64,000 nucleotides of DNA from Parahoeflea alexandrii (lineage in GTDB: Bacteria; Pseudomonadota; Alphaproteobacteria; Rhizobiales; Rhizobiaceae): positions 620,001-684,000 of the forward strand of contig NZ_JAAAML010000001.1 in assembly GCF_024105735.1 (NCBI RefSeq), read 5' to 3'. The position numbers were made by a program, and so were the translations under genes. The notes under the pieces were generated by a model. That model was not told the DNA's origin. It searched no databases and saw only the letters and a program-made list of their open reading frames with translations. Positions 31,758-35,405 of this stretch are shown here, in pieces (position 1 is the stretch's first letter; each line of letters opens with the position of its first letter).

Positions 31758-32801
31758 ATGACTGAAACTCAGGAAAACTCGGTAGCAATGACCGCCAGGC
31801 CGGTGGCGCTTGTACTGGGCGCCACCGGAGGCATCGGCGGCGCGGTTGCGGCAAAGCTTCTGGCGAAGGGCTATACCGTGCGGGCGATGCACCGCAATGC
31901 CGGGGCGCAGGCAGCAAAAACGCCGCAATATGAATGGATCGCCGGTGACGCGATCAATCGCGCCGATGTGATGGCAGCAGCCAAGGGGGCAGAACTGATC
32001 GTGCATGCGGTCAACCCGCCCGGTTACCGCAACTGGGGTACACTGGTGCTGCCGATGATCGACAACACCATTGCGGCCGCAGAGGCAGCGGGCGCGCTCA
32101 TCCTGATGCCGGGAACGGTCTATAATTTCGGGCCTGAGACGTTCGACGCCATTACCGAGGACAGCCCGCAAAGGCCGGTCACGGTGAAGGGAAAGATCCG
32201 CGTCGAGCTTGAACAGCGGCTCGAGGCCGCAACCCGCCGCGGTACACGCGTGATCATCGTGCGGGCCGGTGATTTCTTCGGTCCGGGCGCAGGCAACAAC
32301 TGGTTTGCCCAGGCCGTGGTCAAGCCAGGCCGGCCCGTCAAGGCAATCACCATCCCGTCCGACACCGGTGTCGGGCATCAATGGGCCTATCTGCCGGATG
32401 TCGCTGAGACCATGATGCAACTGGTGGCCCGGGCCGGAGAACTGCCGGCGTTCGCGCGGTTTCACATGGAAGGGGTCTGGGACCATGACGGCGAACAGCT
32501 GGCAAGCGCGATCCGCCGCGTCACCGGCCGGACGGAGCTGCGGGCGAAGCGGTTTGCCTGGTGGCTGCTGCGCCTTGCAAGGCCGGTCATGCCGCTTGCG
32601 CGCGAACTTCTGGAGATGCGCTACCTGTGGCAGAGAGAGTTGCATATGCGGAATGACAGGCTGGTGGCATTTCTCGGCGCCGAGCCGCACACGCCCATCG
32701 ACCAGGCCGTGAGGGATACGTTGAGCAGCATGGGCTGTCTGGGGCAGGATCCGCGCAATGCTCCGGTTATTGGGTCTGTCTCCCGCGGCAAGCCCGTCTG
32801 A
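31758..32801 (+). CDS. NAD(P)-dependent epimerase/dehydratase-like (extended or atypical SDR) protein
   Basis: 347 residues. Rossmann nucleotide-binding motif LGATGGIGGAVAAKLLAKGY near residues 22-41; a GTVYNFGPETFDAITEDSPQ segment replaces the classical YxxxK region of short-chain dehydrogenases. Substrate unknown. Start ATG 31758 with a perfect AAGGAG at 7 bases; the GTG three bases upstream is unlikely. Divergent from the LysR gene. Confidence 0.9.
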   Translation: MTETQENSVAMTARPVALVLGATGGIGGAVAAKLLAKGYTVRAMHRNAGAQAAKTPQYEWIAGDAINRADVMAAAKGAELIVHAVNPPGYRNWGTLVLPMIDNTIAAAEAAGALILMPGTVYNFGPETFDAITEDSPQRPVTVKGKIRVELEQRLEAATRRGTRVIIVRAGDFFGPGAGNNWFAQAVVKPGRPVKAITIPSDTGVGHQWAYLPDVAETMMQLVARAGELPAFARFHMEGVWDHDGEQLASAIRRVTGRTELRAKRFAWWLLRLARPVMPLARELLEMRYLWQRELHMRNDRLVAFLGAEPHTPIDQAVRDTLSSMGCLGQDPRNAPVIGSVSRGKPV

Positions 32802-32904
32802 GCTCGAAGCATCCGGTCATTGGCGGCCTGGGCGCCGCCAATTGTCGGCCAGCGCCGCACCGGCCTGAATCCGCCGAGCGGCTTGCCCGGACAAGGCAAG
32901 GGCC

Positions 32905-32938
32905 AAAAAAAATGGGCCGCGAGATTGCTCTCGGGCCC
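32905..32938 (-). terminator. Rho-independent terminator of the sRNA
   Basis: On the minus strand GGGCC-CGAGA / TCTCG-(bulge)-GGCCC stem with a 4-base loop, followed by eight T. Confidence 0.9.
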
Positions 32939-33027
32939 AATAGGTATGAAGGTCAAAAAACCTCCAGAGGGGAACAGCTCATGCGGCGGCACTGGGAGGA
33001 GTAGGCCGCCAAAGGTGCATCAGCTGT
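32905..33027 (-). ncRNA. abcR: AbcR-like (alpha-r15 family) trans-acting small RNA
   Basis: About 120 nt, minus strand. Stem-loop 1 is formed by 33017-33026 with 32975-32984 and, inside it, GGCGGC/GCCGCC (33005-33010 with 32985-32990). Its loop displays the anti-SD word CTCCTCCC (32994-33001 on the complement). A second pyrimidine stretch, TTCCCCTC (32967-32974), follows. It ends with a GGGCCCGAGA-type hairpin (32914-32938) and eight T. Promoter-like TTGCCT-N17-CATATC lies directly upstream (-10 at 33032-33037). It sits directly downstream of lsrB, as AbcR1/2 do in Agrobacterium. AbcR RNAs repress ABC-transporter mRNAs with Hfq. Only one copy is seen; 5' end is estimated. Confidence 0.75.
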
Positions 33028-33079
33028 AATCGATATGGTGCTTATTTATGCAATAGGCAAGGGAATGATGCGCATGTCA

Positions 33080-33100
33080 GCCATGCGAATACTGCATGGC
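33080..33100. promoter_or_regulatory. Perfect palindrome upstream of the sRNA promoter
   Basis: GCCATGC-GAATACT-GCATGGC, 7-bp arms and 7-bp spacer, centred about 55 bp before the putative -10 box of the sRNA. Further CATG words flank it. Position and geometry fit a LysR-type activator site, plausibly LsrB/VtlR encoded next door. Confidence 0.6.
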
Positions 33101-33194
33101 TACTTGCATGTCCAAAAAACAGGCAGAATTGGAAATGCAAAAATCGTGTTCAGTACTGTTCAGTCCGGAAATGCGAGCGTGCACGCCGTTCTGA

Positions 33195-34091
33195 TCAGAA
33201 ATTCCAGTTGCGCGCCTTCGAGATCAGGAAATCCCGGAAGGCTTTGAGTTTGGCCGCGTTTTTCATTTCCTCGGCATAGCAGAAATAGGTGTCGAAGGTC
33301 GGGATGTCTGCCGGAAGGTTGAGCTGGACCAACGCGAGGTCGCGGTTGATCATGTAATCTGGCAGCAGTGAAATGCCGGCGCCGTTGAGTGTGGCCCGCC
33401 GGATGGCCGGCAGATTGTTGATCTGCAGTTGCGCCTGGCGGCGGTTTTCGGGCGTGCGGCCGGCTGTTTCCAGCCAGTTTACATCGGTCAGATAACCTGG
33501 CGCGGGTTCGCCGAAGGTGATGATTCGGTGGTTGTCGAGGTCCTCGATGGTCTTGGGCTCACCGTGGCGCGCCAGATAGGTCGGCGAGGCGTAGACGTGC
33601 AGGTGCACCGTGAACAGTCGCCGCTGGATCAGGTCGGGTTGCTGCGGCTGGCGCAGGCGGATGGCGCAATCGGCCTGGCGCATGTTGACGTCGAGTTCCT
33701 CGTTGTCGAGCAGCAACTGCACCTGGACGTCGGGATACAGGCCCTGGAACTCCTGAACCTTCTCTGTCAGCCAACCCTGGCCGAAGCCGACCGTGGTCGT
33801 CACCCGCAGCTTGCCGGACGGGCGCTCGCGGGTTTCGGTCAGACGGTTTCTGACCGATTCGAGCTTCATCAGCACTTCGTGAGCGGTCTGGTAGAGGATC
33901 TCACCCTGTTCCGACAGGATCAGGCCCCGGGCATGGCGGTGAAACAGCTTGGCGCCAATGTCCATCTCAAGTGCTGAGACCTGCCGCGAGATGGCCGATT
34001 GCGACAGATGCAGCTTTTCGGCGGCATGGGTGAAGGAGCCGGCTTCCGCGGCAGCATGAAAAATGCGCAGTTTGTCCCAATCGAGTGGCAC
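33195..34091 (-). CDS. lsrB: LsrB/VtlR-type LysR-family regulator
   Basis: About 298 residues. HTH in VPLDWDKLRIFHAAAEAGSF and LSQSAISRQVSALE, then the LysR effector domain (DCAIRLRQPQQPDLIQRRLF). The N-terminus and the position beside trxB and lrp match LsrB of Sinorhizobium (redox and LPS control, symbiosis) and VtlR of Brucella/Agrobacterium (activates AbcR sRNA). The start is a GTG at 34091, or a TTG at 34094, preceded by AAGGGGAAGAG. The sRNA directly downstream fits the VtlR-AbcR connection. Confidence 0.9.
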   Translation of the reverse strand: MPLDWDKLRIFHAAAEAGSFTHAAEKLHLSQSAISRQVSALEMDIGAKLFHRHARGLILSEQGEILYQTAHEVLMKLESVRNRLTETRERPSGKLRVTTTVGFGQGWLTEKVQEFQGLYPDVQVQLLLDNEELDVNMRQADCAIRLRQPQQPDLIQRRLFTVHLHVYASPTYLARHGEPKTIEDLDNHRIITFGEPAPGYLTDVNWLETAGRTPENRRQAQLQINNLPAIRRATLNGAGISLLPDYMINRDLALVQLNLPADIPTFDTYFCYAEEMKNAAKLKAFRDFLISKARNWNF

Positions 34092-34145
34092 CAAGCTCTC
34101 TTCCCCTTGGCCCGTTGATCGAGCCTCTATCCGGCGCTCATGCGC

Positions 34146-35120
34146 CTATTCTGCAGCTTCGGCGTGCCTGACATGTCCCGCCAGATAGCGCTCGGCCTCC
34201 AAGGCCGCCATGCACCCCATGCCGGCCGCAGTCACGGCCTGACGGTAGATATCGTCGGTGACGTCCCCGGCAGCGAAAACGCCCGGTACATCCGTGGCAG
34301 TCGAATCCGGCGCTGTCCACAAATAACCGTTCGGCTTGTGCTTGAGCTTGTCCTTGAAGAGGCTGACGGCGGGGGCGTGTCCGATGGCGACGAAGACACC
34401 GTCGATCGGCATGTCGGTGCTCACGCCGGTCTTGCGGTTCTTCAGCCTGACACCGTTGACCGAGGCGGGCATCGGCGGGATGGCCGGCGCGCCCAGATAC
34501 TCGACCACTTCGGTATCCCAGATAACGTCGATGTTGTCCTTGTCGAACAGCCGCTGCTGCAGGATCTTTTCGGCGCGGAACGAGTCACGGCGATGGATCA
34601 CGGTCACGCGTGCGGCGAGATTGGAAAGATACAGCGCCTCCTCGACCGCGGAGTTGCCGCCACCGACCACGACGACGTTCTTGCCGCGATAGAAGAAGCC
34701 GTCACAGGTGGCGCAAGCCGAAACGCCAAAGCCCATGAATTCCTTCTCGGTCGGAATGCCAAGCCACTTGGCCTGGGCGCCGGTGGCGATGATCAGCGCG
34801 TCGCAAGTCCACACGGCGCCGGAATCGGTCTTGACCGTGAAGGGGCGGTCGGTCATCTCGACTTCGGTGACGAGGTCGTTGACGATTTCGGCGCCGACAT
34901 GCTCGGCCTGCTTGAGCATCTGCTCCATCATCCAGGGGCCCTGCACCGGATCGGCATAGCCCGGGTAGTTCTCGACGTCGGTGGTGATCATCAACTGCCC
35001 ACCCTGTTCCATCCCGGCAATCAGCACCGGCTTGAGCATCGCGCGCGCTGCATAGATCGCGGCCGTGTAGCCTGCGGGACCGGAGCCGATGATGAGAACG
35101 GGGACGTGGCGGTTGGACAT
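34146..35120 (-). CDS. trxB: Thioredoxin-disulfide reductase
   Basis: 324 residues. FAD-binding GSGPAGYTAAIYAARA near the N-terminus, redox-active Cys136-Ala-Thr-Cys139 in SACATCDGFF, NADPH-binding VVVVGGGNSAVEEALYLS and FAD signature VFAAGDVTDD. Reduces thioredoxin with NADPH. ATG 35120 with CAGGAT at 8 bases. Upstream of lsrB on the same strand (54 bp gap) and divergent from lrp. Confidence 0.97.
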   Translation of the reverse strand: MSNRHVPVLIIGSGPAGYTAAIYAARAMLKPVLIAGMEQGGQLMITTDVENYPGYADPVQGPWMMEQMLKQAEHVGAEIVNDLVTEVEMTDRPFTVKTDSGAVWTCDALIIATGAQAKWLGIPTEKEFMGFGVSACATCDGFFYRGKNVVVVGGGNSAVEEALYLSNLAARVTVIHRRDSFRAEKILQQRLFDKDNIDVIWDTEVVEYLGAPAIPPMPASVNGVRLKNRKTGVSTDMPIDGVFVAIGHAPAVSLFKDKLKHKPNGYLWTAPDSTATDVPGVFAAGDVTDDIYRQAVTAAGMGCMAALEAERYLAGHVRHAEAAE

Positions 35121-35405
35121 GGAACAATCCTGAAACAAGTGGTGAGACTGCCATCTTGCGGCATCCCCGGTGACCCATCAATGACGAAAGCCAAGAATTT
35201 GGCGACCGGCGCGATGATGAGGTGTGACTTGCCACCATTTAGGTGCGACCAAGCCGGTGTTTCAAGCTTGCAGGCAAAGTTACGCACAGAACTTCGCGTC
35301 AACTAGGCCGTCGAGGCTTTACAGATGCTGCGCACTGACGCAATAAAGTTTCGCGCACGCCGGAGCCGGAAGCCGGACGGAGCCGCTCATGACAGGGAAG
35401 ACTTC

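Follow-up and report, generated by a model that had tools for sequence, protein, structure and literature searches.

A single predicted AbcR1-type small RNA gene behind lsrB in a probable Hoeflea species

Introduction

Does the intergenic region behind the LysR-type regulator gene lsrB of a probable Hoeflea species encode an AbcR small RNA (sRNA) and, if so, of which known type and in how many copies? An initial annotation of a 64,000-nt stretch of DNA (the whole of which is called the window here), made from the letters alone, had proposed such an RNA on the minus strand. In Sinorhizobium meliloti, abcR1 carries an LsrB box, GCAT-N3-TG-N3-T, at -61 to -49; LsrB binds this promoter, and removal of the box lowers its activity more than 22-fold, whereas abcR2 has an RpoH1 promoter (PMC8844928). 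In Agrobacterium tumefaciens, VtlR binds the abcR1 promoter and not that of abcR2; the same source reports that LsrB does not affect AbcR1/2 of S. meliloti (PMC7486931), which conflicts with PMC8844928. Members of this family, ar15, were described as "always" present in multiple copies in Rhizobiaceae and Brucellaceae (PMC3712013). Our literature search on Hoeflea and AbcR found no report, which is weak evidence, as most subscription papers lay outside that search.

Results

An ar15 family member behind lsrB

A covariance search with the ar15/AbcR model (RF02345) gave a match that covers model positions 1-112 of 112 and scores 94.9 bits, where the gathering score is 40, with an E value of 1.7e-18 for the window; it was recovered again with a 1 kb query. 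The AbcR-like RNA proposed for the minus strand therefore passed this search with much to spare. Its suggested length of about 120 nt also agreed with the match (33025-32908, from the predicted 5' end at 33025) and the U tract that extends to 32905. The claim that the gene has no open frame needs a minor amendment, as a mechanical frame of 123 aa (32621-32992, minus strand) overlaps the RNA. The features of the locus are listed in Table 1.

Table 1. Predicted features of the sRNA locus, in window coordinates
Feature	Position	Strand	Basis
AbcR1-type ar15 sRNA gene	32905..33025	-	RF02345 match, fold z -5.79, pair counts
Stem-loop 1, loop presents most of aSD1	32976..33025	-	predicted fold
aSD1 CUCCUCCC, first pairing seed	32994..33001	-	equals S. 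meliloti aSD1 (PMC8844928)
aSD2 UUCCCCUC, second seed, between stem-loops 1 and 2	32967..32974	-	equals S. meliloti aSD2
Stem-loop 2	32947..32966	-	predicted fold
Stem-loop 3 + U8 tract, intrinsic terminator	32905..32939	-	predicted fold
Sigma-70-like core CTTGCC / CATATC	33032..33061	-	sequence, conservation
LsrB/VtlR box GCATGGCTGACAT (GCAT-N3-TG-N3-T)	33074..33086	-	published consensus and position (PMC7486931, PMC8844928)
Extended site TGC-N7-GCATGGCTGACATGC, T-N11-A at -71/-59	33072..33096	-	sole exact genome match
lsrB/vtlR, LysR-type regulator of 299 aa, starting at TTG or at the GTG of codon 2	33195..34094	-	similarity, place
trxB, thioredoxin reductase, upstream of lsrB	34146..35138	-	TIGR01292 394.6 bits, over cut-off

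The RNA was said to lie directly downstream of an LsrB/VtlR gene, and a gap of 169 nt indeed separates the end of the regulator gene from the predicted sRNA start, both on one strand. The regulator is 75.5-97% identical to 17 aligned relatives (about 76% for the Sinorhizobium and Agrobacterium rows, 86-97% for the six rows from Hoeflea or near-Hoeflea). The neighbour was taken as LsrB/VtlR because of these identities and because it sits next to ar15, the arrangement described for S. meliloti; among the 25 NCBIfam models listed of 55 matched, none reached its cut-off for this protein. Nearest relatives by LsrB protein were mostly Hoeflea, and the host was accordingly taken as a Hoeflea. In all 80 named lsrB loci that were kept (the best 80 of 274 relatives), ar15 was found downstream of lsrB, with 132 copies in total.

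Promoter and LsrB box

The promoter-like TTGCCT-N17-CATATC of the initial annotation was located at 33060-33032 on the minus strand, although generic sigma-70 and terminator scans of 32700-33400 returned 0 sites, the terminator included. Among the 80 lsrB-proximal named copies, the TTG at -35 to -33 is invariant, as are four of the six bases of CATATC. Upstream of this core, the LsrB box GCATGGCTGACAT is exact and lies at -61 to -49, counted from the predicted start at 33025. A box with at most one mismatch was present at exactly -61 in all 80 lsrB-proximal named copies (53 exact, 27 with one mismatch) and in all 30 Hoeflea copies (23 exact, 7 with one mismatch), whereas elsewhere in the same upstream DNA such matches occupied only 0.12% (named) and 0.54% (Hoeflea) of positions. 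The 52 further named copies comprised 13 with the box at -61 and 39 with at least three mismatches there; one of these 39, the second copy of a locus (L080), carries an exact box displaced to -62, and in several Agrobacterium second copies a match with one mismatch lies at -41.

Across the 80 lsrB-proximal copies, the base profile further shows a TGC at -71 to -69 and, without variation, another at -49 to -47. With the former, T and A form a T-N11-A pair from -71 to -59. Only at abcR does the 4.9 Mb genome contain the extended site GCATNGCTGNCATGC (reversed control, 0). When up to two mismatches were allowed in these 25 bases, 11 genome matches were obtained (reversed control, 0). The other 10 were rejected as further strong LsrB sites: all have two mismatches and lie inside mechanical open frames that are 80 codons or longer, unlike the abcR site, which is covered by no such frame.

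The conservation of this promoter bears on the most durable alternative, namely that the RNA arises solely by processing, from the 3' end of a transcript that reads through trxB and lsrB, with no promoter of its own. The position on the lsrB strand, 169 nt behind the stop codon, would suit such an origin, and the short folds of the gap between lsrB and the sRNA include no clear intrinsic terminator. However, an invariant TTG, a conserved CATATC and a box held at -61 in every lsrB-proximal copy argue for a promoter dedicated to the sRNA, and S. meliloti AbcR1 and AbcR2 are described as independent units with mapped starts (PMC3712013, PMC7143759). A purely processed origin thus appears unlikely.

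An even less probable alternative is that this copy is an AbcR2-type gene (RpoH1-driven and stress-induced) or a decayed relic. As it is the single copy, its type has to be read from its promoter alone, and the sigma-70 and RpoH1 consensus sequences are similar. The 39 box-less later named copies illustrate the difficulty: 10 are nearer the printed sigma-70 consensus, 9 are nearer the RpoH1 one and 20 are ties, although the only two copies with a one-mismatch RpoH1 promoter are both among them. Given this near-even split, the sigma-70/RpoH1 consensus score separates the AbcR types poorly and is a weak marker; the two patterns are also unequal, that of RpoH1 containing one extra fixed base. Against an AbcR2-type or relic gene, the promoter here has two mismatches to the sigma-70 consensus but four to the RpoH1 one (CTTGAA-N16-CCTATAT), the exact LsrB box is in place, both pairing seeds are intact and the family model was matched over its full length. 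With a sigma-70-like promoter and an LsrB box exactly where Sinorhizobium abcR1 is reported to have it (-61 to -49), the copy in the window is by sequence of the LsrB-box, AbcR1 type.

In these respects, the predicted RNA is like S. meliloti AbcR1 (ar15, SmelC412), which also lies beside lsrB with a box at -61 to -49 and a sigma-70-like core, and which has the same aSD1, CUCCUCCC (PMC8844928), the same aSD2, UUCCCCUC, and three stem-loops. With the VtlR-activated AbcR1 of A. tumefaciens it shares the family, the neighbour gene and the box.

Fold and pairing seeds

The fold predicted for 32905-33025 consists of three stem-loop domains (-51.7 kcal/mol), the last being an intrinsic terminator, as is characteristic of ar15. 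The U8 terminator that had been pointed out corresponds to stem-loop 3 followed by T8 at 32912-32905. None of 200 dinucleotide shuffles equalled the fold energy (z -5.79), but folds at least as strong as that of the sRNA were obtained for 61 of 599 stretches of 121 nt drawn at random from the window. Consequently, fold energy is not decisive and alone would not reveal an sRNA gene in this window.

Pair counts were obtained from an alignment of 20 lsrB-proximal copies (chosen by the author; 19 distinct), in which 91.9% of cells pair, and sliding the partners reduced pairing to 35-54%. Two-sided changes occurred in 11 of 36 pairs, compared with 5.4 in shuffles, and no shuffle of 500 was as high; the observed number of further pair types was reached by 16 of 500. 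These controls lean in favour of the structure, which was taken from the window's own fold, and the aligned rows are related. By domain, both sides had changed at four of the six pairs of the stem-loop 1 inner helix and at five of the 11 pairs of stem-loop 3, whereas stem-loop 2 had 96.1% of its cells paired and six of eight pairs invariant. The 3-pair helix adjoining the loop of stem-loop 1 was unsupported by the counts in these relatives.

This weak helix also qualifies the proposal that a hairpin loop presents CTCCTCCC (33001-32994, minus strand): the minimum-energy fold places six of its eight bases in the loop and pairs the first two in the helix, whereas the Rfam consensus leaves the entire stretch unpaired. 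The second pyrimidine stretch was correctly recognized and corresponds to aSD2, which is wholly unpaired in the predicted fold. Thus, as expected for ar15, two seeds lie in unpaired regions, aSD2 completely and aSD1 for six of eight bases by the fold.

Although isolated motifs do recur in the window (CTCCTCCC once on the plus and twice on the minus strand, and TTG-N20-CATATC twice on the minus strand) and other stretches fold as strongly, the idea that G+C-rich intergenic DNA mimics an sRNA by chance, through its hairpins and motifs, is so improbable that we consider it refuted by the covariance match and the conserved place of ar15 behind lsrB, and the full-length match together with the two-sided pair changes places the sRNA above chance.

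The two seeds differ in their conservation. All 162 copies, 30 from Hoeflea and 132 named, contain the exact aSD2 sequence TTCCCCTC, and the strict aSD1 sequence CTCCTCCC was found in 28 of 30 Hoeflea, 18 of 80 lsrB-proximal named and 13 of 52 later named copies; many of the remaining copies read TTCCTCCC in the alignment of lsrB-proximal copies. An inverted repeat, ttggcggc-ctgggc-gccgccaa, was also observed at 32819-32841, between the sRNA terminator and a convergent frame ending at 32801, with no T run after it.

Copy number in the genome, genus and family

The initial annotation had noted one visible copy, and the genome-wide search agreed: a single ar15 match exceeded the cut-off. A hidden AbcR2 was sought up to E 10 and rejected: the next-best match, at 23.0 bits (E 0.038), falls short of the 40-bit cut-off, and matches of this strength were likewise obtained in 12 of 14 control genomes, none of them above it. 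The other member of the clan (CL00108) in this genome is mmgR (Rfam suhB, RF00519; L193 1501-1572, minus strand, 61.5 bits, over its own cut-off), which resembles ar15 in its CCTCCC stretch and U-rich terminator but is a separate gene elsewhere in the genome. It was rejected as a second ar15 gene, since no ar15 match fell at mmgR among the matches listed to E 10. As read from its sequence, a frame near mmgR is inositol-monophosphatase-like. The genome therefore differs from that of S. meliloti, with its tandem RpoH1-driven AbcR2, and from the Agrobacterium-titled loci listed, all 13 of which have two copies, the second lacking the box at -61.

A single copy is common in the genus. In the same-genus survey of 18 genomes, 17 contained one to four ar15 copies: one in nine genomes, two in four, three in three and four in one, and the genome with 0 copies was 77% complete. 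One copy was recovered for H. olei and two for H. halophila. The 80 named loci gave one copy in 33, two in 43, three in three and four in one; these counts are lower bounds, because each locus extends no more than 2.5 kb past lsrB, and the two sets are not separate, with loci L031-L039 overlapping nine same-genus genomes. In a wider-family sample with stricter filters, 151 of 199 genomes had matches at E 0.001 and 132 passed the cut-off; genomes with matches had one to six each, and many listed one. The "always" multiple copies of PMC3712013 are hence not seen here, and we did not treat multiplicity as family-defining. One family-sample genome (G031) exceeded every same-genus genome, its ar15 matches at E 0.001 numbering six; those listed lie on three contigs.

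On the lsrB tree, genomes with two, three and four copies were scattered among one-copy ones, and copies within one genome reach 99% identity (G002). Together, these observations suggest repeated duplication of the whole promoter-RNA unit in Hoeflea, on a tree that does not tell gains from losses; four of its 20 inner branches are open, the rows of G004 and G015 are shifted (the end of another frame was taken for lsrB) and G008, which gave no match, is absent. One copy (L002) in a genome with 9% contamination (G011) is only 59% identical to the other copy there and may be foreign.

A possible single regulatory input in Hoeflea

Measured against the printed consensus sequences, 20 of the 30 Hoeflea promoters were nearer sigma-70, one was nearer RpoH1 and nine were ties. 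Hoeflea thus seems, from its promoters, to multiply the LsrB-driven unit rather than to keep an LsrB/RpoH1 pair. Considering the box in all 30 copies (17 genomes), this promoter split and the scattered multi-copy genomes, Hoeflea AbcR might have one input only, with the RpoH1 stress branch absent and the unit of LsrB box, promoter and sRNA repeatedly multiplied to two, three or four, which would act as a gene-dosage dial on one regulator. We hold this reading about as readily as we doubt it; its weak point is that the RpoH1 score fails to mark the box-less copies of other genera cleanly.

Candidate targets

An hfq gene is present in the genome (111.1 bits). We compared the pairing of the seeds with the start regions of 36 substrate-binding-protein genes (18 of 19 over-cut-off PF13458 matches, L123 having failed a frame check, 11 of 11 PF00496 and seven of seven PF00497; the under-cut-off PF13458 matches L130 and L131 were excluded) and of 29 short-chain dehydrogenase genes (from 63 PF00106 matches, 30 of which were fetched and L164 dropped, its 555-aa frame having the same length as the adjacent L156). 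The former paired better (one-sided p 0.0018 by minimum energy and 4.6e-5 against shuffled seeds), a difference that is confounded by the generally stronger Shine-Dalgarno sites of substrate-binding-protein genes (p 0.006). The motif GGGAGGA preceded the start codon in nine of 36 versus 0 of 29 genes (one-sided p 0.003); seven motifs were compared, and this one gave the strongest difference. The nine genes with the motif are L111, L116, L117, L119, L121, L126, L128, L136 and L141. Because of these stronger sites, the seeds themselves being anti-Shine-Dalgarno sequences, and start codons picked by the author's own rule, some of which are probably wrong, the result is support, not proof, for transporter targets.

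Discussion

Our results indicate that the RNA behind lsrB is very probably a single AbcR1-type (ar15) trans-acting sRNA of a Hoeflea species, its activation, Hfq-dependent pairing and repression being carried over from orthologues. By analogy with these, LsrB from the neighbour gene would bind the box and activate transcription, and the RNA of about 120 nt would, together with Hfq, pair through aSD1 and/or aSD2 with the ribosome-binding sites of mRNAs. The latter would encode substrate-binding proteins of ABC transporters and products of other metabolic genes, whose translation would be lowered. Without a second copy, all AbcR output would depend on one promoter.

Judged by its sequence, the RNA looks like a genuine but ordinary member of the known ar15/AbcR family in the known LsrB circuit. 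What is added is modest: all Hoeflea copies found carry the LsrB box, this genome having one of them and sister species as many as four. The LsrB-AbcR1 circuit, which has been studied in symbionts and pathogens, would thereby be extended to Hoeflea, and the printed statement on multiple copies of ar15 (PMC3712013) is now qualified. In addition, a one-copy species beside sisters with two, three and four copies under the same box offers a natural series for the effects of sRNA copy number.

Finally, the regulator itself shows a difference between groups. Cysteines 143 and 272 of LsrB are kept in 18 of 18 aligned proteins. At column 235, cysteine occurs in nine of 18 (the Sinorhizobium, Ensifer, Agrobacterium, Rhizobium, Shinella and Ferirhizobium rows), and threonine occurs in the window's protein and in seven Hoeflea, near-Hoeflea or Pseudohoeflea rows. 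Since the activity of LsrB is reported to depend on the oxidation of cysteines (PMC7486931, PMC8844928), LsrB sensing may differ here.
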